From the IMG/VR virus record IMGVR_UViG_3300030329_001395, positions 1 to 29,561 of that record: 29,561 nt of DNA, one strand, 5' to 3'. Within the stretch, counting starts at the first letter, position 1; each line of letters begins with the position of its first letter. This stretch comes from a virus. The notes beneath the pieces were generated by a model that was not told the DNA's origin, did not search any database, and saw only the letters and a program-made list of their open reading frames with translations. Shown in pieces: positions 16,004 through 29,238 of the stretch. A program made the position numbers and the translations under genes.

Positions 16004-17914
16004 TTATCCAACTTCTCCCCAATTACTACCTAATTCGGCATCTACCTCAAAGGGTATCTTTAAATCTGGTACACAATTGCACATAATGTCTTTAATTTTT
16101 TCAACTTCCTTCTCATTTTTAATATTAAAACAAAGTTCATCATGCACTGTAAGTGTTGGACACAATCCTTCTTCATAACAATCTATCATTGCTTTCTTTG
16201 TTTGGTCTGCACTAGACCCTTGAATCAATCTATTCAATGCTTTGTATGTAAATGCTCTTCTAATTCTACCTTTAGAACCATATTCTTGAATTGCCTCTTT
16301 CATAGGTAATGCTTTATTGTATTGATAAGAAATTGGCTCATACATATTAAACCTACATTTACGGCCCAACCATGTTCTGATAACTCCAGTTTCAGATGCT
16401 CTTCTTGTCGCTCTGTCCGAAACAGATTTTAAAAAAGGAACTCTCTCATTATATTTTTCTAAAAGAGAAGTTGCTTCATCTACAGACAAGTCAAGTATGT
16501 TAGCTAATTTAGCTTTGCCCATTCCATACATCAATCCAAGATTTACTGTCTTCGCTTGTTTCCTAGGTATACCTGCAATGTCTGCTACCATTTGATGAAA
16601 ATCTGCATTACCTTCTTTATACATGGTTACTATGTCATCTATTTGTGGGTGTCTATCAACACCTGTCAAGGTAGCACAGTAATGAACTAACCATCTTGGT
16701 TCTTGTGAGGCATAATCAAAGGAACCCCATTTGTGGTGCTCCTCCGGGATAAACAAACCACGAATTAATTTTTTAATCTCAGGATCTCGTGCTGGGATCT
16801 GCTGCAAATTGGGGTTGCTTGAACTAAAACGACCTGTTACAGTACCACCACCATCAGAACGAAGAGGATGAAAATCACAATGTATACGACCTTTATAAGA
16901 ATGCTCAAGAATAGTATCAACAAAAGTTGTGTTCGCTTTATTTATCTCTCTAATCTTTATAATTTTTTTCGCAATAGGATGATGATGATTAGCGAGAAAT
17001 TGTTTTGTAAACGCGGGAGACCCAGACTTTTCTGTGCGAGAGTAAGAAAGTCCCACAGCGTCAAAGACTTTTGCTACAGATGTGGCGACCCAAGGTTCCA
17101 TCGCTACGCCAGTGTCCTTAGCTATTTCATCAAGTAAAGTTTTTTCTAATTTTGTTAAATCTTTTTTGACTCTTTGAGCTTTGTCTAAATCTACACGAAC
17201 ACCTTTTGTTTTCATGTCTAATAAAATAGGTGTAAGTTTTGTCTCTAAATTAAATATGCCAGTGCATTCTTCAGAAACAATTTTCTTTTCTAATTCGTTC
17301 CATAATCTTAAAGTTATTAAGGCATCTTGTTCTGCATACGCACCAACATAACGAGGTGGCAATCTCCACATGCCAGACTTTGGATCTACTCCAAATTCTT
17401 CTGCTGCACTTTTTAAAAGTTTTTCATCTTTGTATGTTTTTAAATGATCTCTAGCCAAAGAATTTAAATTATAATATCTTCTGTTTTCATCTAACAAAGG
17501 AGCAACAACCATGGTATCTCTTATTTTACCTTTAACTTCTATACCCTCTGCTCTAAGCCAACCTAAATCATATAAAGCATTATGAAAAACTACAGTTTTT
17601 GTTGTTTCCTTACAAATATCATCAAGCCATTTCATTACAACTTTTCTTGGCATATTACCTACAGTATGTGCTATAGGAAAATACCAAGCACTATCACCTG
17701 CAGCTACGGCAATTCCAATAATGTGTCCATCTTTTCTACACCACCCAGGCCCAAGCTTTGTAAGATTTTCATCTCTTGTCTCCAAGTCAATAGATATTGT
17801 ATCGTATTGTGATAAATCTGGTAATGTTTGAGGGGGAGTCCAATCCGAATCAGCATTTCCCCAAGAAATGTCTTTTATATCTTGTTCTAATAAATGGTAC
17901 TGGTCATTTTTCAT
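16004..17914 (-). CDS. polA: family A DNA polymerase with 3'-5' exonuclease (636 aa)
   Basis: The phage replicative polymerase. The exonuclease domain comes first: Exo I 'ISIDLETRDEN' (D43, E45), Exo II 'FHNALYDLGW' (N112, D116), Exo III 'YAEQDALITL' (Y193, D197). The polymerase domain follows: 'DGGGTVTGRFSSSNPNLQQI' thumb/palm entry, motif A 'SFDYASQEPRW' (D400), motif B 'RKQAKTVNLGLMYGMG' (R451, K455, Y463), motif C 'LTVHDELCF' (H591, D592). There is no 5' nuclease domain, as in T7-type and many marine-phage enzymes. The residue matching E. coli Phe762 is Leu459. The start overlaps the previous gene by 11 nt. It is last in the replication operon. Confidence 0.96.
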   Translation of the reverse strand: MKNDQYHLLEQDIKDISWGNADSDWTPPQTLPDLSQYDTISIDLETRDENLTKLGPGWCRKDGHIIGIAVAAGDSAWYFPIAHTVGNMPRKVVMKWLDDICKETTKTVVFHNALYDLGWLRAEGIEVKGKIRDTMVVAPLLDENRRYYNLNSLARDHLKTYKDEKLLKSAAEEFGVDPKSGMWRLPPRYVGAYAEQDALITLRLWNELEKKIVSEECTGIFNLETKLTPILLDMKTKGVRVDLDKAQRVKKDLTKLEKTLLDEIAKDTGVAMEPWVATSVAKVFDAVGLSYSRTEKSGSPAFTKQFLANHHHPIAKKIIKIREINKANTTFVDTILEHSYKGRIHCDFHPLRSDGGGTVTGRFSSSNPNLQQIPARDPEIKKLIRGLFIPEEHHKWGSFDYASQEPRWLVHYCATLTGVDRHPQIDDIVTMYKEGNADFHQMVADIAGIPRKQAKTVNLGLMYGMGKAKLANILDLSVDEATSLLEKYNERVPFLKSVSDRATRRASETGVIRTWLGRKCRFNMYEPISYQYNKALPMKEAIQEYGSKGRIRRAFTYKALNRLIQGSSADQTKKAMIDCYEEGLCPTLTVHDELCFNIKNEKEVEKIKDIMCNCVPDLKIPFEVDAELGSNWGEVG

Positions 17915-18182
17915 TTTTTTCCTTTTCTACAAATTCGCCACCAAGACCAGTATACCCCCCAATGTCAATCCAACTATCTGTCTTCTTTGGAGAAAAAATT
18001 AATCTGGCTATTTTTAAAAGAATTAAACACAAAACAACTTGAGGAACTGTAACCTTAACACTAAAAACCACAGACCATAAGTCAGCAATTCTTTTATGGT
18101 TTTCATACGCTGGACCATAATCTTCTGCTCTGTCTACATTAATAAGTTTTATTGCTTCTTTTAAAATATCTTCTCTGTTCAT
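17904..18182 (-). CDS. DUF6378-like phage protein (92 aa)
   Basis: 'ILKEAIKLINVDRAEDYGPA' then 'NHKRIADLWSVVF', 'VTVPQVVLCLILLKIARLI' and 'KTDSWIDIGGYTGLGGEF' match the layout I remember for DUF6378, a small all-helical phage family common beside replication or nucleotide genes. Function unknown; the order DR-x-x-x-YG ... HD-like ... K-x-DS-[WY]-x-D may form a charged pocket. An AGGGG Shine-Dalgarno precedes the ATG. It lies between the UvrD-like helicase and the polymerase, overlapping the latter, so it is co-translated with replication genes. Confidence 0.8.
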   Translation of the reverse strand: MNREDILKEAIKLINVDRAEDYGPAYENHKRIADLWSVVFSVKVTVPQVVLCLILLKIARLIFSPKKTDSWIDIGGYTGLGGEFVEKEKNEK

Positions 18183-18190
18183 GTTTTCCC

Positions 18191-19708
18191 CTATAATTCA
18201 AACCTATATTGTGCAGTAGATTCAATAAGATGCAAGGACTTTTTAGCACGAGTCATTCCTACATAGAATACTCGGTACTCTGAATCTTGATCCCAACTGT
18301 CTGCACATGCTTTTGTTGAGTCTAAAAGAAGAGCCACATTATCAGCTTCTCCACCTTTAGCTTTATGAATTGTAGAAACACGAACCCTAGGAGCAGCCGT
18401 CAGAATCTTCTCCCCCCTTCTCCTCACCGAAGTTATGTAAGCCACTTCCTGCTCCGATACTTTCAAAACATTCTGCCAAGGTGTTTCCGATGTCGCTTGT
18501 AAGTTGCATTTGTTTATAATGTCTTGAAGAGTATAGGTTTGATCTAACTCTAAAGTAGCCATAATCTTTCTGCCTGATTTTGTTATAATGTTTGGATCTA
18601 TTAATTTTGAAAAAGTTTTTAATTGTTCTGAAGTCAAAGTCTCTTTCTTGCATAGTTTAAGCCATACCTCTATTGCATTTAAAACATTTGGGGAAATAGA
18701 CCAACCAGTGCCCTCTCTCCAAAAAAGATGACCGTCCTCTTTTAATTTGAGACATACCTTGTTTACAATATAATTTGTTCTCGCAAGTATTAACCATTCG
18801 CCACTTGATAAGTCTACATCTAGTATATCCCTATACCATGTAATAAAACCTTTTTGTTTTAGGGGTTGCCATTTTTTATTTTCTCTGGTTCTAACTTTTT
18901 TTATAAGAAAATCTGCCATATCATGTACAACTTCTGGAACACGATAGGATTTTTTTAAAATCATTTTATCTTTACTTGCATTTAAAAACTGACCTACATC
19001 TACACCCATCCAAGAATATATTGCTTGATCATCATCACCCGCATAATAAATTTCTTTAGAGTTAGGAACTAAAACTTTTTTAACCATACTCCATTGTAAT
19101 GGTGCTAAATCTTGTGCTTCATCTACAATTAACAAATCAAACTCTGGACTTGTACCTTCTGCTATAAATTTTTCTATCATATCAACAAAATCATACTTAC
19201 CTTTTACTCTTTTATAATCAGAATAAGCCTTGTCTAAAACCTTTAATTGTTGCCAATGTAAATCGTAATCCCATCCTTTAACATATTGTTCTTCTGTTGT
19301 TATTTGTTTTACCCTAGCCATTTGAATAATAGCCATGTATTTATCACCACCTGCACCAACACTAAATAAAGGTCCTTCTTCTATATTTAATGTTTGAGAA
19401 GTTCTAAAATCTAACCCAACAAGTCTACCAAGTTCGTTATAATCAGATCCTTTAAAAACACTTTGTGAATTTAAACCCAACCACTGAAATGCAAGTGAAT
19501 GTAAAGTTCTAAAATAAACCATATCTTTTGTATCTAAACCCAACTCCACAGAAGCACGATCCCTTGCCTCTGTCGCTGCCTTTTTACTAAAAGAAAAGAA
19601 ACCAATTCTTTTAGGGTCTACCCCTTCAGATATTCTATTCTTAACTATATCTATAAGTTTTGTTGTTTTACCTGTTCCTGGTGGCCCAAATATAGTTGTC
19701 TCACTCAT
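18191..19708 (-). CDS. UvrD/Rep-like SF1 DNA helicase (505 aa)
   Basis: ATP-driven DNA unwinding, probably in replication or recombination. All SF1A motifs are visible (numbered from the ATG at 19708): Walker A 'FGPPGTGKTT' (7-16), Ia 'FFSFSKKAATEARDRA', II 'LIVDEAQDLAP' (DEAQD 196-200), III 'YAGDDDQAIYSW', IV 'KSYRVPEVVHD', V 'VSTIHKAKGGEADNV' (from 444), VI 'YVGMTRAKKSLHL'. It is shorter than cellular UvrD, with reduced 1B/2B regions, as in other phage forms. I prefer 19708 because it makes an ATGA junction with the HNH gene; an upstream start at 19735 is possible. Confidence 0.93.
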   Translation of the reverse strand: MSETTIFGPPGTGKTTKLIDIVKNRISEGVDPKRIGFFSFSKKAATEARDRASVELGLDTKDMVYFRTLHSLAFQWLGLNSQSVFKGSDYNELGRLVGLDFRTSQTLNIEEGPLFSVGAGGDKYMAIIQMARVKQITTEEQYVKGWDYDLHWQQLKVLDKAYSDYKRVKGKYDFVDMIEKFIAEGTSPEFDLLIVDEAQDLAPLQWSMVKKVLVPNSKEIYYAGDDDQAIYSWMGVDVGQFLNASKDKMILKKSYRVPEVVHDMADFLIKKVRTRENKKWQPLKQKGFITWYRDILDVDLSSGEWLILARTNYIVNKVCLKLKEDGHLFWREGTGWSISPNVLNAIEVWLKLCKKETLTSEQLKTFSKLIDPNIITKSGRKIMATLELDQTYTLQDIINKCNLQATSETPWQNVLKVSEQEVAYITSVRRRGEKILTAAPRVRVSTIHKAKGGEADNVALLLDSTKACADSWDQDSEYRVFYVGMTRAKKSLHLIESTAQYRFEL

Positions 19709-19965
19709 TTTTCCATCTCTAACTTTCCGTGACATGCTTTACAAACACATATACATTTTTCTATTTCTTTGTTTAATGTATCTAAATTTCTATCTTCACT
19801 AATTATGACTGCAACTGCTTTATATTTTGTACTAGGATCTACATGATGCCACTGCAAATGTATAGCCTCTTTGTCATATCCACACATTTCACAACCCCTA
19901 GACAATTTTATTTTGTCATTATATTCCCTTAAAATTCTACTTTTTTTTGCCCATCTACCTACCAT
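19705..19965 (-). CDS. HNH endonuclease (86 aa)
   Basis: A compact zinc-bearing HNH domain: first knuckle 'CEMCGY', catalytic region 'LQWHHVDPSTK' (the HH pair and D), second knuckle 'CVCKACHGKLE'. Such enzymes nick or cut DNA; phage versions act in packaging, recombination or homing. Here it is locked into the operon: its ATG overlaps the primase stop (TAATG) and its TGA overlaps the helicase ATG (ATGA). No intron or disrupted gene flanks it, so an operonic nuclease is more likely than a recent homing insertion. Confidence 0.88.
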   Translation of the reverse strand: MVGRWAKKSRILREYNDKIKLSRGCEMCGYDKEAIHLQWHHVDPSTKYKAVAVIISEDRNLDTLNKEIEKCICVCKACHGKLEMEK

Positions 19966-21503
19966 TAAAAAGGTATCTCCTCTTCCTTTATATCAACAGA
20001 TTTTACCTCTACCTCTGATCCAAACTCTGGTATCCACCAAACTCTCATGGCTTTCCATTTACCTTGTGATGTTTGAAAATTTTTTACAATAGAACTATCC
20101 CCTTTATTTATCTCTTTTATTCTCTCTTGTACTTGTGCTCTTGTATAACTATCAAATTTTCTACTTCTCAAAAAATCTATTAAACTCTCTAAACGAAAAT
20201 AAGTTTTACCTTCTTCAACATCTGTATATGGTTTACCTAATACAACCTCTTCAAAACTTTGTGCTTGAACTCTACCTGTGCAATACAACTCAAGCAAAGA
20301 CATAAACTGCCCTTTGTAAGTTAATTCCTCTGGAACATTTATTTCGTTACAATTTTCTAATAATGTGTTGACTTGCTCTTCCCACAAAGAATCTTTTAAT
20401 TTTGGTGGCATAAAGTTTAATTGCTCCATACATGCCCTTTGAAATAATCTTGGAGTTTGTAATTCTTCTGTTGTTAATTCTAATCGTCTGCCATCTATAT
20501 CTAAAAACCAAAGTCTTGGCTCTGATAATATTACTGAAAGTCCACTAATCGTAGGCATAGATGTTGTCCCTATACCATGTTTTAATCCTCTACATATACC
20601 TTGATTACAATGTGAAGGCATGGGTTCTTCTTTACAAAGATACTGATATTCTTTTTTCTCTAATGTAGATTGTATTGTAACAATCTCTGACGCTGGTAAA
20701 GGGGGATTAAAATGTTTTACATTTAATTCTTCTAATTTTGCTTTCCAATTATTAGGTACAGACTTTTGTAAGAACACTCCCAATTGAAATGCCGTTTTAT
20801 TCCTTTGACCCTCGTGCACTCCCATACTTAAAAGAGCACGAAGGCAAGGAACATATCCTGGAAATAAATTTACAGGTCCACCAATAGGTATTTGCATAAA
20901 ATCATTTGGGGAACATGTTTGAGTTTTTACTTCCTCAATGAATTGTTCAAGTGTAGCTTCAACGAATCCATCTTCTGTTTGAATGACCGCGTATCTGAGG
21001 GTTTGAGTATGATCAAAATAAGGAAGATTAATAAAATTACCAATGTCCCCACGCTCCACCAAAACTTGTTCTTGTTTTGGGAAAATCTCGCAACGACCAT
21101 GACCCAGTCCCGCAGCAACTTCTGCAGCCTTGTCTCTAAAATCACCTGCATTCATCCACTCCTTAAAAAAGAAAAATATATGTGCACCGCCACTTTTACT
21201 ACGGCACACGACACATGGAATCTTGAGTTCTTTCAATTTAACAACAAGAGCATTATGATCCAAGGGATATTGGTCTATGTCAAGAGCACCAAATCTACAC
21301 TTGTTCTCTTCATTTATAGGTATAGCACCGACACCTTTTTTGCCGTCTATATGCCCTTGCATTAATTCTAGTGTAAGTGGTTGTCTGACAATAAATGATT
21401 TGGCTTTCTGTTTGCCATTCATTCTTTGATTTGAAACTTCTGTCTGCCCATGAGCAGAACTAAAACCTTCAAATATTTTCAATAATTCTTCTGCTAAATT
21501 CAC
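19965..21503 (-). CDS. archaeo-eukaryotic-type primase (AEP, TOTE-like; 512 aa)
   Basis: Likely makes primers for phage replication. AEP motifs: 'CRFGALDIDQYP' (D75, D77), 'RSKSGGAHIFFFF' (S104, H108), and 'INLPYF' after 'CEIFPKQ'. A 'EGQRNKTAFQLGVFLQK' segment near 231-247 is PriCT-like, and a Cys/His cluster follows (C290, H298, C299, C304). There is no fused helicase. The C-terminus ends '...DIKEEEIPF', like the SSB interaction tip. The start codon is GTG at 21503, only 10 nt after a terminator U-tract. The layout resembles primases of TOTE-type systems as I recall them. Confidence 0.82.
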   Translation of the reverse strand: MNLAEELLKIFEGFSSAHGQTEVSNQRMNGKQKAKSFIVRQPLTLELMQGHIDGKKGVGAIPINEENKCRFGALDIDQYPLDHNALVVKLKELKIPCVVCRSKSGGAHIFFFFKEWMNAGDFRDKAAEVAAGLGHGRCEIFPKQEQVLVERGDIGNFINLPYFDHTQTLRYAVIQTEDGFVEATLEQFIEEVKTQTCSPNDFMQIPIGGPVNLFPGYVPCLRALLSMGVHEGQRNKTAFQLGVFLQKSVPNNWKAKLEELNVKHFNPPLPASEIVTIQSTLEKKEYQYLCKEEPMPSHCNQGICRGLKHGIGTTSMPTISGLSVILSEPRLWFLDIDGRRLELTTEELQTPRLFQRACMEQLNFMPPKLKDSLWEEQVNTLLENCNEINVPEELTYKGQFMSLLELYCTGRVQAQSFEEVVLGKPYTDVEEGKTYFRLESLIDFLRSRKFDSYTRAQVQERIKEINKGDSSIVKNFQTSQGKWKAMRVWWIPEFGSEVEVKSVDIKEEEIPF

Positions 21504-21513
21504 TCTTCACCCC

Positions 21514-21555
21514 AAAAAATAAGAGCCGTATAAATGGAGGAATTTTATACGGCTC
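21514..21555 (-). terminator. Rho-independent terminator after the SSB-like gene
   Basis: A perfect 12-bp stem (21523-21534 with 21544-21555, arms GAGCCGTATAAA and TTTATACGGCTC) with a 9-nt loop. On the - strand it is followed by TTATTTTTT (A-run at 21514-21519 on +). It sits 11 nt past the SSB-like stop and 10 nt before the primase GTG, so it probably sets the ratio of SSB-like protein to the primase-helicase-polymerase genes. Confidence 0.85.
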
Positions 21556-21566
21556 AACTTTAGTTA

Positions 21567-22349
21567 TTAAAACGGCACTTCATCGCCAGCTTTTTCTGCC
21601 ATTTCATCGGCAGAAGCAGCAGCCATTTTAATGTCCCCTTTTCTTACACTCTGATACATAGTACGAGCCTCTAGCATCATCTCTTCTATATCAGATGTAA
21701 TTTCAGTTATGCGATCTAACTTATAGTTATACCAAGTTCCTTGATCATTACTCTCGGAAACTGTACCCAATTTCCAAGCCGTGCCATAAATAGGCATTGG
21801 TTTACCACTTGGCAAACGAATACCGTTCTTTAATGTATTCCATCTTCTTGACACTTTCAACTGTGTTTTTTTCATGTCAAGAACTGCTGGAGCACTTTGA
21901 CCATCAGATCCTTTTGCAATAACCAAATGTTGATGAGTTCTTACTAACTCATTACCACTCGGTAACATTTCAATCGTCCCCTCACGAGTCGTTAAATTAA
22001 TGTCATTGTCTGTCGGAGACAATTCTTTAATGAAACCACCACCTGTTGAGCGAAGTGCAAATTCCAAAAATTTCTTTTCAAAATAGCACGGAACAATGAT
22101 TACTCCTTCATCGGCTTTGTAAATCTCTTGACTTACAGTATTAAAAATATCGCCTTGTTCAGCACCTTTAATGTATAAACTATCTTGTTTATTTAATTGT
22201 GGCGACAAAGCCTGCAATATCCTAACAAAAGGAATTTGCATATCATCAGTTGTAAAGTTTTCAAGACCTGCACCAGAGTCTGCTTCAAGCATTTTGTCAA
22301 GTTCTGATACCACAACTTCAGTGGTCTTTTTTTGTGCTACTTGGTTCAT
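21567..22349 (-). CDS. putative single-stranded DNA-binding-like protein (260 aa)
   Basis: A soluble protein with 'DDMQIPFVRILQALSPQLNK' near residue 36, 'GVIIVPCYFEKKFLEF' near 82 and a beta-rich body. This pattern is common to phage proteins encoded directly upstream of primase. The C-terminus is acidic and ends 'AGDEVPF', very like the E. coli SSB tip (DDDIPF) that recruits partner proteins. No canonical OB-fold signature was recognised, so ssDNA binding is inferred from tip and context. A strong SD (GGGAGG) precedes the start, which overlaps the previous stop (TAATG). A terminator follows it, as expected for an abundant protein. Confidence 0.62.
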   Translation of the reverse strand: MNQVAQKKTTEVVVSELDKMLEADSGAGLENFTTDDMQIPFVRILQALSPQLNKQDSLYIKGAEQGDIFNTVSQEIYKADEGVIIVPCYFEKKFLEFALRSTGGGFIKELSPTDNDINLTTREGTIEMLPSGNELVRTHQHLVIAKGSDGQSAPAVLDMKKTQLKVSRRWNTLKNGIRLPSGKPMPIYGTAWKLGTVSESNDQGTWYNYKLDRITEITSDIEEMMLEARTMYQSVRKGDIKMAAASADEMAEKAGDEVPF

Positions 22350-22918
22350 TATTGACCTCCCTTTATTTTTGCACGATTACCTTGGTATACCCCGAATAAA
22401 TCAAAATCAATATCTTTACCGTTTTCAATTCTATTCTTAACCCAAGTCTTTAAAGTCATTGGATGTACATGAGTTTTCTTCACTGGGTTTAAACCTTGCT
22501 TTGTAAGATCATCAACCACGGCTCCCGCGACATTGTCTTGTCCCATGTTAAAGCCAACCACGACTTCATTCTTAATAATATCGCCCTCACCACAAGTGCG
22601 AAGAAAAGAAAAAGCTTCATCTTTTCTTGCCTCTGGGATACGAGCAGATACATACTTATCAACAGTAACTTTGTTACCATCTACTGATAAACTTTCAACA
22701 CCAAGTTCTTGCATCAAGGAAGGTATATCTTCCTCGTCTACATTTCTCTTTCTGTGTTGAAGGTCTTTGAGATGTTGTTCGGCATCTTTAATTTGTTTGT
22801 CTAAATCAATTGATTGCCTAATTAATGATGATAAGTTTTTAGTCTTTTCTTCACCGACTTTAGCAAAAGCTTGAGGGTCAGCAGCCTCATTCTCAAAAAG
22901 TGAAAACACATCACTCAT
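22349..22918 (-). CDS. conserved phage coiled-coil protein (189 aa)
   Basis: Residues 30-62 form a coiled coil ('LDKQIKDAEQHLKDLQHRKR'), then 'EEDIPSLMQELGVESL', a beta segment, 'FLRTCGEGDIIKNEVVVGF' and 'VHPMTLKTWVKNRIENG'. I recognise this layout (coiled coil, 'IP.LM.E.G', 'G.GD.IK', 'VHP.TLK') from phage proteins next to SSB-like genes, where it may be a partner in replication; no biochemical function is known to me. SD AAGGAGAG precedes the ATG. Two 11-bp direct repeats lie just upstream. Confidence 0.72.
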   Translation of the reverse strand: MSDVFSLFENEAADPQAFAKVGEEKTKNLSSLIRQSIDLDKQIKDAEQHLKDLQHRKRNVDEEDIPSLMQELGVESLSVDGNKVTVDKYVSARIPEARKDEAFSFLRTCGEGDIIKNEVVVGFNMGQDNVAGAVVDDLTKQGLNPVKKTHVHPMTLKTWVKNRIENGKDIDFDLFGVYQGNRAKIKGGQ

Positions 22919-22933
22919 CTTTCTCTCCTTCTT

Positions 22934-22966
22934 CGTTAAAGTTTATGCTCTTCAGCGTTAAAGTTT
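22934..22966. repeat. two 11-bp direct repeats, possible operator
   Basis: CGTTAAAGTTT occurs at 22934-22944 and 22956-22966, exactly 22 bp apart (two helical turns), in the 49-nt gap between the RHH-like gene and the coiled-coil gene. Repeats on the same face of the helix immediately downstream of a candidate repressor gene suggest binding sites. A third partial copy (TCGTTAAttT) lies near 23154, before the RHH-like gene. Confidence 0.5.
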
Positions 22967-22967
22967 G

Positions 22968-23141
22968 TTAACTAGAAACTACTCTAATCTCTTGTTCCTT
23001 GTCAACGGTTTTTTCATGCTCTCTTTTAGTGAGATATGAAATCGTACCACCAACAGACCTATCGTTTCTGTCGGCTATTTCTTTTAGCATTGACCAAATG
23101 TTAATTGGCACTGCTACTGATTTCCATTTATTCGGATCCAT
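22968..23141 (-). CDS. ribbon-helix-helix-like small regulator (57 aa)
   Basis: From Met at 23141: 'DPNKWKSVAVPINIWSMLKE' then 'IADRNDRSVGGTISYLTKRE'. A beta-strand with V-x-V-P, followed by helix-turn-helix spacing and a 'RSVGGTISYL' second helix, fits the RHH (Arc/MetJ/CopG) fold. This start has SD AAAGGA 7 nt upstream; the longer frame from 23234 has a Phe/Arg-rich leader over a palindrome-rich region and is unlikely to be coding. It probably regulates the early operon, perhaps binding CCTAGG boxes upstream or the 11-bp repeats downstream. Confidence 0.68.
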   Translation of the reverse strand: MDPNKWKSVAVPINIWSMLKEIADRNDRSVGGTISYLTKREHEKTVDKEQEIRVVSS

Positions 23142-23169
23142 TAATTTTCCTTTCGTTAATTTGATGAAA

Positions 23170-23228
23170 GAGGTAGAACGGAGAAACCTAGGGAAATCAA
23201 AACAAAAAAACCTAGGAAGAACTACCTC
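23170..23228 (-). promoter_or_regulatory. symmetrical operator-like region upstream of the RHH-like gene
   Basis: Outer inverted repeat GAGGTAG (23170-23176) / CTACCTC (23222-23228) encloses two copies of the palindrome CCTAGG (23187-23192 and 23211-23216), which are 24 bp apart. The structure ends about 29 bp before the RHH-like start. RHH proteins typically bind tandem short palindromes as dimers of dimers, so this may be its autoregulatory site. Confidence 0.5.
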
Positions 23229-23267
23229 AATCACTCATCATAACAACACACAATTTACTTGAGTGTC

Positions 23268-23304
23268 ACTATAATCCCTATCACAATAATAACCATATTG
23301 TCAA
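23268..23304 (-). promoter_or_regulatory. candidate promoter upstream of the RHH-like gene
   Basis: On the - strand a consensus TTGACA (23304-23299) is followed downstream by TATAGT (23273-23268). Their spacing, 25 nt, is too long for one classical promoter, so either TTGACA pairs with a poor -10 or TATAGT with a poor -35 (ATGGTT). It lies in the only sizeable gap (23142-23312) of this part of the - block. Confidence 0.33.
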
Positions 23305-23312
23305 ATAAAATC

Positions 23313-23762
23313 TCAAGTTTTCTTTTTTTCTTTTGTTAATGCAATTCTTGTATGTTTTTGGCTTTCATACAACGATTGCTCCCAAGACATTTTTATATGT
23401 TCTTCTCTCCTAAAATCATTGATATGTATTTTTTTAGTTTTTTTATCTTGGAATTTTTCAACATTAAAAAATATAACTGACCTTTCTTTTATTGCACATA
23501 GAGCAATGATATCACATTCTGCTTTTGTGTATGGTCGTTTATCCCCACCTTGAACAACTTGAAAATTATATAAATCTTTATTCATATAAGTTGCCGTCTT
23601 AACTTCTATTCTTTGTGGCACAAGCAATGATCCATCTACACTTTTTGTTGCCACAATATCTGTACCATCTTGTTTGACTAAACCACAATCAACACCAAGC
23701 ATACATAGTTGTAGTGCCGTGCAGTATTCTCCTGCCATGCCTATCAATTTCTCAAGTCTCAT
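23313..23762 (-). CDS. PD-(D/E)XK-like nuclease (149 aa)
   Basis: 'LIGMAGEYCTALQLCMLGVD' (E12), 'KQDGTDIVATK' (D35) and 'QRIEVKTATYM' (E53-V-K55) give the E...D...E-x-K arrangement of the restriction-endonuclease fold, as in phage resolvase- or exonuclease-like proteins. The Lys-rich C-terminus may bind DNA. Start: ATG at 23762 overlaps the helicase stop (ATGA), preferred over 23774. Coupling to the SNF2-like helicase suggests the two work together on replication or recombination intermediates, or on host DNA. Confidence 0.72.
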   Translation of the reverse strand: MRLEKLIGMAGEYCTALQLCMLGVDCGLVKQDGTDIVATKSVDGSLLVPQRIEVKTATYMNKDLYNFQVVQGGDKRPYTKAECDIIALCAIKERSVIFFNVEKFQDKKTKKIHINDFRREEHIKMSWEQSLYESQKHTRIALTKEKKKT

Positions 23763-25201
23763 ATTTTTAACCATTCTAAAACCCTTTCTCCTAAAGTTAT
23801 ATTTGCTAGTTTATTTTTTGATAACAATGTTTTAACAATGTGAACATCAACTGTGTTTGGACACATCAAATCAACATACAATACTGGGTGATGTTGCCCT
23901 ACTCTATGAGCACGATCCTCGGATTGTTTCCTTGACTCTAAATTAAAATCGTTTGAATAATAAATTACATTTGTCGCTGCATGTAATGTGATACCCATAC
24001 CACCAGTTTGAGGATTGCTTACAAAAAATCTTACATCACTTTCTTTGTCTTGAAATTTTTTTATCGCATCTTGTCTATCTTCAACTGATGTATCCCCATA
24101 GTAATTTACTACAGTATTAGACCCATAAGTTGTTTTTAATTTTTCTGTTATAGATACTATGTCATGACGAAACCTAGACCATATAATTATTTTGCCTTCC
24201 ATTTCTTCAATAACTTCCATCAATACATTCATTCTATTGTTTTCAATTAATTTTGTTTCACCATCATCTGTCACTAAATAACCACACAATAGTTGTTGCA
24301 ATCGGAGTAATTGTGTCATGACTTCTGGAGCACTGACCATTTCTCCACTTTCCAAAAAAGCCACCGAAGTTTTTTTAATGCTATGATAATGTCTTTCTTG
24401 TTCCATTGTTAAATCAACTTGTCTCGTTGTATATATCTTTGGTGGTAAATCTAATGCCTCTTCTTTTGTTGTCCTATAAGAATAAGGATCTATTTTACTT
24501 TTCATCTCATCTAAATTTTTAAAACCAACGACTTGATTAAAACTATGATTACCCATTCTTCTATTCATTATAACAGCGTATCTGCCTTGAAAAGACCAAT
24601 AAGAATTGTGTCCTAATATGCTCGTGCTTAAAAATCCAAACTGTGAATATAAGTCAAGTGGCGATTTTGTAATTGGTGCTCCTGTTAATATTCTTTTATA
24701 CTTCGCACCCCCACCAAATTTAATTAAAGCTTTTGTTCTTTTCGCCTGGATATTTTTAATCGTGGTAGACTCGTCTATCGCCAAAAGAAACTCACTTCTA
24801 TGTGTTACCTTCTCTAAATATTGTAATACTTTCTTGGTCGCAAAAGCCTCAACATTGATTAGAATGATTCTAAACTGATGTCTCTCGGTCACCGAATCAC
24901 GGAGCTTTTCAGTTTCTTTTTTATTTAAGTTTGCTTTCCATACATATATTTCATGCTCTATATTTTCTCTCATGTGTATGGGTATTTCATTGTCTCGCCA
25001 ATTTAAATACACGCCCTTTGGTGCAACAATAATCGCAGAGTCAATATGTCTATTCTCATATAACCATGCCATATTATCTATTAATACTTTTGACTTACCA
25101 CACCCCATCTCCATAAAGTAAGCAAAATTTCTTTTATCAAAACTTTTTTCTAGTGCCTCTTCTTGATGTTTGTATGGTTTTGTCTTGTAAGTAAAATTCA
25201 T
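23759..25201 (-). CDS. SNF2-like SF2 helicase/ATPase (480 aa)
   Basis: DEAD-like ATPase core: 'KPYKHQEEALEKSF' Q-like entry, Walker A 'MEMGCGKSKVL' (33-37), motif Ia 'AIIVAPKGVYLNW', motif II 'LAIDESTTIKN' (DEST 143-146), motif III 'RILTGAPITKSPLDLYSQF'. Second RecA domain: 'KIIIWSRFRHDI', 'YYGDTSVEDRQDAI', motif V 'NPQTGGMGITLHAA', motif VI 'QSEDRAHRVGQ' (426-436). It is short, with no chromatin-type accessory domains, as in other phage SNF2 proteins. Possible roles are fork remodelling, replication helicase substitute or recombination. It precedes the nuclease (ATGA). Confidence 0.94.
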   Translation of the reverse strand: MNFTYKTKPYKHQEEALEKSFDKRNFAYFMEMGCGKSKVLIDNMAWLYENRHIDSAIIVAPKGVYLNWRDNEIPIHMRENIEHEIYVWKANLNKKETEKLRDSVTERHQFRIILINVEAFATKKVLQYLEKVTHRSEFLLAIDESTTIKNIQAKRTKALIKFGGGAKYKRILTGAPITKSPLDLYSQFGFLSTSILGHNSYWSFQGRYAVIMNRRMGNHSFNQVVGFKNLDEMKSKIDPYSYRTTKEEALDLPPKIYTTRQVDLTMEQERHYHSIKKTSVAFLESGEMVSAPEVMTQLLRLQQLLCGYLVTDDGETKLIENNRMNVLMEVIEEMEGKIIIWSRFRHDIVSITEKLKTTYGSNTVVNYYGDTSVEDRQDAIKKFQDKESDVRFFVSNPQTGGMGITLHAATNVIYYSNDFNLESRKQSEDRAHRVGQHHPVLYVDLMCPNTVDVHIVKTLLSKNKLANITLGERVLEWLKI

Positions 25202-27982: not shown

Positions 27983-28190
27983 TTTCAATCTCCTTTACTT
28001 TTATTTTAAAAATTTCTAGTGCCGTTCCATAATCATTAGTCGCATCAAATCCACTATCTGAACTAATTTCATAATTCCAATTTGGAATATCGTAATCATC
28101 AAAAGTTTGCACACTTAACTCTACAACATCTCCACATGGAGAATCATATCTCTTATAAATTTTATTTGGATTTGGCATTTTCATTTTCAA
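27972..28190 (-). CDS. small hypothetical protein (72 aa)
   Basis: 'KIYKRYDSPCGDVVELSVQT' then 'DDYDIPNWNYEISSDSGFDA' and a helical 'TALEIFKIKVKEIENER'. Mixed alpha/beta, acidic centre. Several Met codons (28190, 28184, 28178) could start it within the end of the methyltransferase gene. No family recognised. Confidence 0.56.
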   Translation of the reverse strand: MKMKMPNPNKIYKRYDSPCGDVVELSVQTFDDYDIPNWNYEISSDSGFDATNDYGTALEIFKIKVKEIENER

Positions 28191-29238
28191 TCTCCTTTTT
28201 TAAAGCTAATCCTAAATACATTGCATTTTGAGGACATATAGCATTTCCCAAACCTTTTAATCTGTTTGTTCTATCTTTGTCCAATTCTGTGGATACCCCA
28301 TTAGGAACTCCGTGAAGTTCACATTCAATTTCCCACCATGTTCGTTGTTCTTTAAGACTTCTCTTGGCAACGATTTGTCTCTGCTTTTCTTCCATGTTGG
28401 GTTGTAACTTGCATCTTTCCAGTCCCTCGCTAGAGGAGTTGGATAGTTCCATGCTTTCATTCTTGGTGGACGAAGAGTTACTCCGTTCATCATGGCTTGT
28501 GCTTGTTGTTCCGTCATTTCTCCGTTCTCCACTTTCTTTCGGAATATCATTGTCTGACCCTCTGACGCATGACCGAATCCCTTTGTCGTTGGTGTCGGAT
28601 ATAAACTCATTGTCTGTGGGTCTACTTGTTCCCTCAAGTTGCTTGGTCTCTTCCGTCCCTTTCTGTGTCCCTCTTGCATTTTCTTCGTTGCCTCTGCACT
28701 TCTTGGGGGAAGATGATCCATTGTGTTCGGAGTTGCATACAGTAAGGTCTTTGCAGACAATCCAGACTCGGTCTCGTTTGTGCCATGCTCCGACTGATGA
28801 AGACGGAAGTATAAATGTCCTCGTATGGTAGTTGATGCTTTCCATTTGAAACAAAACCTCGTCAAGTCCCAATGAGACATGCCCATAAACATTTTCGTAA
28901 ATACAATAAGTGGGTCTTGTTTGTTCAACAATTCTAAAGATGTACGGAAAGATGTGTCTTTCGTCCTCTGCACCTTTTCTTTTTTGAGAGGCGACAGAGA
29001 AGGGTTGGCATGGGTATCCACTTGTGAGGATATCAATTGGTTGTTGAATAAATCTTTTTGTGTCATTTGCAATCTCCTTGACATCATTATAAATTGGAAT
29101 ATTTGGAAAGTTCTTTGCTAACACTTTTTGACACCATTCATCAGTATCGCAAAATGCTATTGGTTTAGATAGGTTTGCCCATTCAAATCCTAGAGCAAAC
29201 CCACCAATACCACTACATAAGTCTAAATGATTAAGCAT
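28162..29238 (-). CDS. DNA (cytosine-5) methyltransferase (358 aa)
   Basis: Transfers methyl from SAM to cytosine C5, probably protecting phage DNA. Motif I 'LDLCSGIGGFALGFEW' (5-20), IV 'GYPCQPFSV' (C77 nucleophile), VI 'ENVYG' (115-119), VIII 'WHKRDRVWIV' (152-161), X 'RLKGLGNAICPQNA' (326-339), with 'WWEIECELHGVPNGV' before it. The variable region 167-300 is Ser/Asn/Thr/Glu-rich, nearly free of aromatics, and unlike a folded recognition domain. SD GAGGTG is 6 nt before ATG. It is unusual in that another conserved-looking ORF fills 28257-29066 in the +1 frame. Confidence 0.93.
   Translation of the reverse strand: MLNHLDLCSGIGGFALGFEWANLSKPIAFCDTDEWCQKVLAKNFPNIPIYNDVKEIANDTKRFIQQPIDILTSGYPCQPFSVASQKRKGAEDERHIFPYIFRIVEQTRPTYCIYENVYGHVSLGLDEVLFQMESINYHTRTFILPSSSVGAWHKRDRVWIVCKDLTVCNSEHNGSSSPKKCRGNEENARGTQKGTEETKQLEGTSRPTDNEFISDTNDKGIRSCVRGSDNDIPKESGERRNDGTTSTSHDERSNSSSTKNESMELSNSSSEGLERCKLQPNMEEKQRQIVAKRSLKEQRTWWEIECELHGVPNGVSTELDKDRTNRLKGLGNAICPQNAMYLGLALKKEIENENAKSK
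28257..29066 (-). CDS. overprinted phage protein inside the methyltransferase gene (269 aa)
   Basis: Open in the +1 frame of the methyltransferase. Met at 29066 has AAGGAG (29079-29074) 7 nt upstream, an ideal ribosome site within the host gene. The sequence contains 'CFKWKASTTIRGHLYFRLHQ', three Y-x-TP blocks ('YATPNTMDHLPPRSAEATKK', 'YPTPTTKG', 'YPTPLARDWKDASYNP'), and ends 'GGKLNVNFTEFLMGYPQNWT'. I recognise this (W/L-x-TPT...D repeats, then G-G-x-LNPxWVEWLMG[FY]Pxx[WY]T) from free-standing phage proteins often labelled methylase. Function unproven; perhaps a methyltransferase partner or target-recognition subunit. An upstream Met at 29087 exists without an SD. Confidence 0.72.
   Translation of the reverse strand: MTQKDLFNNQLISSQVDTHANPSLSPLKKEKVQRTKDTSFRTSLELLNKQDPLIVFTKMFMGMSHWDLTRFCFKWKASTTIRGHLYFRLHQSEHGTNETESGLSAKTLLYATPNTMDHLPPRSAEATKKMQEGHRKGRKRPSNLREQVDPQTMSLYPTPTTKGFGHASEGQTMIFRKKVENGEMTEQQAQAMMNGVTLRPPRMKAWNYPTPLARDWKDASYNPTWKKSRDKSLPREVLKNNEHGGKLNVNFTEFLMGYPQNWTKIEQTD

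Follow-up and report, generated by a model that had tools for sequence, protein, structure and literature searches.

Two overlapping reading frames at a virus locus probably encode a two-chain C5-cytosine methyltransferase

Here, we describe a locus of a virus genome at which a C5-cytosine methyltransferase gene (product: MT) carries a second gene (product: P1) entirely within its own limits and in the +1 frame relative to it. We consider it likely, with a rough probability of 0.8, that MT and P1 are two chains of one C5-cytosine methyltransferase, and that P1 supplies the recognition region and motif IX. The features of the locus are listed in Table 1.

Table 1. Features of the MT/P1 locus. 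Positions refer to the window, i.e., the whole stretch of DNA that was analysed, a virus record of 29.6 kb with 35% GC.
Feature	Position	Strand	Remarks
MT, C5-cytosine methyltransferase catalytic chain	28162-29238	-	358 aa; motifs I-VIII and X, without motif IX
MT catalytic part, motifs I-VIII, aa 1-163	28750-29238	-	phmmer alignment to HhaI 12-179; substitution-rate profile
P1, nested +1-frame gene, proposed recognition/motif IX chain	28257-29066	-	269 aa; ATG at 29066, stop at 28257
Shine-Dalgarno AAGGAG, in MT codons K-E	29074-29079	-	7 nt before the P1 ATG; conserved in relatives
P1 core, aa 45-103, co-encoded with MT motifs VI-VIII	28758-28934	-	both frames constrained
P1 Y-A-T-P block 1, aa 110-113	28728-28739	-	T-P invariant in 64 P1s
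P1 Y-P-T-P block 2, aa 156-159	28590-28601	-	same comparison of 64 P1s
P1 Y-P-T-P block 3, aa 208-211	28434-28445	-	same comparison of 64 P1s
P1 motif IX-like end GGKLNVNFTEFLMGYPQNWT, aa 244-263	28278-28337	-	profile matches to motif IX
MT linker between motifs VIII and X	28279-28749	-	amino acids near-neutral (MT-changing 0.331 vs 0.424 synonymous in both frames); stops avoided
MT motif X GLGNAICPQ, frame 0, immediately past the P1 stop	28228-28254	-	position-3 variation is back there

MT is readily recognised by family models (PF00145, E 1.4e-39; TIGR00675 dcm, E 1.7e-32), and its alignment with M.HhaI is limited to motifs I-VIII (residues 2-169). The original prediction, made from the sequence of this window, had reported an ORF of 269 aa in the +1 frame, led by a Shine-Dalgarno (SD) sequence, together with three Y-x-T-P blocks and a C-terminal GGKLN...LMGYPQNWT signature. 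All of these were found again at the expected places, the ORF being offset by 172 nt relative to MT. The open frame runs past the P1 ATG to 29087 (276 aa), and upstream (286 codons). When the synonymous codons of MT are shuffled, a +1 frame as long as P1 arises once in 1000 shuffles for the window, and an equally long one in 0-0.4% of the shuffles for 16 other loci. P1 matches PHROG 1008 (E 3.8e-19), as do all other P1s tested; the protein annotated in Paenibacillus phages as a second 'DNA cytosine methyltransferase' is a further match of this family. P1 matched nothing in Pfam or NCBIfam, PADLOC has no P1 family, and a search of PDB sequences with a P1 profile gave nothing meaningful. Elsewhere in the window, positions 16004-25201 hold replication genes, which encode a family A DNA polymerase, a UvrD-like helicase, an AEP-TOTE primase, an SNF2 helicase and a Pam3 gp34-like protein.

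The internal start of P1 is conserved. An SD of at least 5 nt precedes a P1-frame start in 157 of 161 loci, and the MT codons which form it are strongly biased: lysine is encoded by AAG in 82 of 83 distinct loci vs 39% upstream (p 2.5e-27), glutamate by GAG in 69 of 83 (p 1.3e-7), and the asparagine that forms the P1 ATG is AAT in 44 of 44 cases and never AAC (p 1.6e-7), where all p values have to be read with the relatedness of the loci in mind, which makes them not independent.

Constraint in both frames was compared over homologous loci, as had been proposed along with the original prediction, and the +1 ORF evolves like a gene on which purifying selection acts strongly. Among the IMG/VR relatives, MT codon position 3 is the most variable position outside the overlap, while inside it is MT position 1, which equals P1 position 3. 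In the L012 clade, for example, variation at MT position 3 amounts to 0.244 outside the overlap and 0.070 inside, and at MT position 1 to 0.058 outside and 0.189 inside. Third-position variation of MT is gone from about MT codon 102, where the constraint on P1 sets in, and returns past the P1 stop. For the stretch between MT motifs VIII and X, substitutions were sorted by their effect in both frames in the three best-populated clades. Here, substitutions that change P1 and are silent in MT occur at rates of 0.035-0.058, those that change MT and are silent in P1 at 0.331-0.407, and those silent in both at 0.295-0.424; since the compared pairs share ancestry, the counts are not independent events, but direction and size of the effect recur in separate clades. 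Relative to changes in MT, those in P1 are depleted about tenfold. The pattern recurs in a fourth, small clade, with lower rates (0.009, 0.157 and 0.168, in the same order of classes). The low rate of P1-changing substitutions in the linker and the similarity of the MT-changing rate to the rate silent in both mean that P1 is strongly constrained and that the MT linker residues are near-neutral.

The picture differs along the overlap. Around MT motifs VI-VIII both proteins are constrained (SN 0.154, NS 0.117, SS 0.571). In the region of motif IV, the P1-changing rate is 0.337, compared with 0.389 outside the overlap, and the first ~40 residues of P1 are nearly unconstrained. The MT frame is free of stops in all 153 loci, which were selected with both frames readable, vs 0.4% of P1-synonymous shuffles. 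Purifying selection is thus found in both frames, as is expected of an overprinted pair. P1 is a real, selected protein, and the MT chain has no selected or conserved recognition region.

The nested pair is widespread, with hundreds of phage and bacterial loci at which P1 mostly goes unannotated or carries a wrong name. In about 170 viral loci selected through P1 or MT, P1 lies in the +1 frame of MT wherever both frames are readable, and in complete loci the overlap spans 200-500 codons; L005, L007 and L142 have a broken frame or were mis-picked. In L005 (1495-2423, marine phage KM23-C739), P1 is open, but a break near codon 80 divides the MT frame, which has been annotated as two genes; the break may be a frameshift or a sequencing error. 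When loci were picked by the MT N-terminus only, the P1 model matched the +1 frame in 138 of 156, a figure that, with a query built from our own subfamily, is no estimate of the share among all C5-methyltransferases. The other 18 comprise two with a match in other frames and 16 without a match, among which seven carry a classical in-frame motif IX and two are cut contigs. Genomes of Bacillota, Bacteroidota, Alphaproteobacteria, Actinomycetota, Desulfobacterota and Planctomycetota are found among the loci picked in this way, and phages of E. coli, Paenibacillus and Lacticaseibacillus have the nested arrangement as well. Another 80 viral loci, selected through P1, contain 80 MTs. P1 is nested in +1 in 79 of these, and the remaining case is a tandem duplication. 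L400 (133-1952) is a viral contig in which the nested pair is partially duplicated in tandem, with two MT frames and a +1 P1 of its own for each. In L213 and L328, indel variants place P1 or the remainder of MT in an unexpected frame, and these indels are possibly assembly errors.

The original prediction had assigned the signatures of P1 to free-standing phage proteins. This assignment did not hold: all homologues, in the first set (about 168 loci), in 80 of the 80 further ones and in annotated phages, overlap a methyltransferase, and no free-standing P1 homologue was found in viral contigs, in phages or in 148 genomes of the phylum of L200. Conserved pieces of P1 and MT do pair codon for codon as originally described, and they are co-encoded across loci. 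With respect to the MT frame itself, motifs I, IV, VI, VIII and X are present as predicted, but the 'GVPNGV' among the aligned pieces is an out-of-frame shadow of the P1 LMGYP, and motif IX is absent from MT.

Motif IX is instead recognisable at the end of P1. The consensus of this end, GGxLNPxWVEWLMGYPxGWT, matches the in-frame motif IX of actinobacterial methyltransferases in a profile comparison (E 3.8e-9); with motif IX of classical enzymes the match falls in the right place but is weak (E 0.001, probability 21). The ungapped L-x8-MGYP spacing of P1 equals that of HhaI RKLHPRECARVMGYP (HhaI 272-319). Among the methyltransferases picked by their N-terminus, a motif IX in the +1 frame and one in frame are mutually exclusive. 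Judged by sequence, the P1 C-terminus looks like MT's own motif IX moved to another frame, rather than like a de novo sequence; one chain may have been split into two frames, or an alternate frame may have been captured.

The division between the chains is not the same everywhere. In L218, L222 and L242 (Streptomyces, Actinomadura) and L190 (Gordonia phage), motif IX lies in frame 0 with motif X, and the +1 P1 is kept, with its core and L-P-T-P blocks and without motif IX. P1 is thus more than a displaced motif IX, and the division of labour varies. Mycobacterium phage Stasia (L182, 1514-2654) and Arthrobacter phage Renna12 (L183, 1352-2408) have split methyltransferases, in which the ORF of the N-terminal half stops after motif VIII and a +1-frame ORF bears P-T-P blocks, motif IX and motif X. 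In Stasia, a P1 homologue is in this way joined to motif X in a separate C-terminal methyltransferase ORF, which matches PHROG 1008 (E 2e-93) and PHROG 116 (E 6e-9). The smallest pair, L329, leaves about 45 MT residues between motifs VIII and X.

Further evidence comes from nine E. coli phages, whose catalytic part is nearly identical and in which whole W-P-T-P blocks of P1 have been inserted or exchanged. In the E. coli Kagunavirus group, the MTs agree to 98% over their first part despite such swaps and insertions. This is the behaviour expected of target-recognition modules. In the same group the linker rates fail to separate the frames, as the test is confounded by the block swaps, and a segment of the linker (FWSDADWLGCRDGKFRPVEPG...) shows conservation in the MT frame too in the E. 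coli phages. Taken together, the motif IX comparison, Stasia, L329 and the block swaps lead us to read MT as the catalytic chain and P1 as the chain for recognition and motif IX.

On this basis we propose the following mechanism. MT would form the large catalytic domain, with the AdoMet and catalytic motifs I-VIII, a long flexible linker and motif X. P1 would start at its own ribosome-binding site within MT and form the small domain. This consists of the conserved core, the variable W/Y-P-T-P modules, by which the DNA target is probably recognised, and motif IX, which would dock the small domain on the large one. Both chains would assemble to an active methylase that probably shields the phage DNA from host restriction. 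The small-domain fold of P1 is only proposed, because AlphaFold models of P1 alone are poor (pLDDT 57.9 for the P1 of the window with 55 sequences, 66.2 for the shortest P1, that of L329, with 102 sequences) and a Foldseek search of the PDB with the L329 model returned zero hits below E 1.

Other explanations have to be weighed. P1 might be an independent overprinted protein with a job of its own, e.g., in anti-restriction or host takeover, and unrelated to methylation. Its failure to match Pfam or NCBIfam would suit such a protein, as would its first 100 residues, which are unlike any part of a methyltransferase, and the relatives that keep P1 beside an MT-frame motif IX. We nevertheless regard this as unlikely, given that no P1 was found without an MT frame, that MT lacks motif IX where P1 has one, that the near-neutral linker would leave MT alone without a selected recognition domain, and that Stasia fuses P1 with motif X.

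Less probable again is ribosomal frameshifting from MT, which would yield a fusion of MT motifs I-VIII with P1 and no separate P1. The fusion would account for the nearly unconstrained start of P1 and for the onset of constraint well inside MT, but its product would lack motif X, since this lies in frame 0 past the P1 stop, and the constraint on P1 already spans MT motifs VI-VIII, so that a shift there would delete MT motifs. The conservation of the P1 SD and start codon, with its strong synonymous bias, likewise argues for separate initiation. That MT is complete alone and P1 a conserved shadow ORF held open by codon bias is very improbable: Pfam and TIGRFAM do class MT as a full C5-methyltransferase, but the constraint is the opposite of what such a shadow would show, with P1 conserved and the MT linker drifting, and synonymous shuffles fail to keep P1 open.

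Two chains of one methyltransferase, the reading we prefer, are of a kind already known from M.EcoHK31I; what is new is the breadth of its occurrence and the evidence for a recognition domain in the small chain. In M.EcoHK31I, the gene for the small chain is contained in that for the large chain and read in a different frame, a nesting to which that of P1 in MT corresponds, and M.EaeI is a two-polypeptide C5-methyltransferase of the same type. The large chain of M.EcoHK31I carries motifs I-VIII and X and the small polypeptide motif IX, with the recognition domain predicted in the large subunit (PMC3404938). When the chains are compared by description, MT and P1 share this distribution of motifs. 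They differ in that the linker is near-neutral, which argues against a large-chain recognition domain in this family, and the variable modules are in P1; moreover, the pair described here is phage-borne and very widespread. M.AquI is likewise one enzyme of two chains, the second with the recognition region and motif IX, but its small chain also holds motif X, and it is described with a break within the variable region instead of nested chains (PMC3404938). The recognition region and motif IX proposed for P1 resemble this second chain, whereas motif X here is in the MT frame past the P1 stop; the split methyltransferases of Stasia and Renna12 look like the M.AquI type. Compared with monomeric enzymes (M.HhaI, PF00145), MT has the familiar motifs I-VIII and X and the P1 end shows the motif IX spacing, but the MT chain lacks both motif IX and a selected recognition domain. 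A hidden HNH endonuclease, encoded out of frame, has been described in the ShiLan insertion of a phage methylase gene (PMC11855218). That gene belongs to a mobile homing insertion, whereas P1 shares its bases with conserved motifs of the methyltransferase. In literature searches we found no report of the nested pair in phages.

On balance, we favour a broader view, in which a large subfamily of C5-methyltransferases of phages and bacteria, annotated as single proteins, would be nested two-chain enzymes, with an alternate-frame DNA-reading domain made of exchangeable W-P-T-P modules and a large-chain 'VGRVAxGVP' signature that is largely an out-of-frame motif IX shadow. If so, the description of most database relatives of MT, phage and bacterial, covers one half of the enzyme; activity assays with just the annotated chain would fail, and specificity would be attributed to the wrong one of the two chains. 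DNA phages would have a long, conserved overlap on the same strand that has been overlooked or labelled as a duplicate 'DNA methyltransferase', and the locus would offer a clean system for catalytic and recognition domains which evolve on the same bases.

Gene callers choose one frame or both, and for this reason many P1s stand in the databases as proteins of their own, named 'DNA methyltransferase' or 'hypothetical'. PHROG 1008, named 'DNA methyltransferase' from annotation, corresponds to the nested chain and not to a catalytic methyltransferase. In E. coli phage SCS92 (L438, 895-1557), the annotation chose P1 over MT and named it 'methyltransferase', and in K1ind1 (L437) P1 is annotated as 'Mte8-like protein'.
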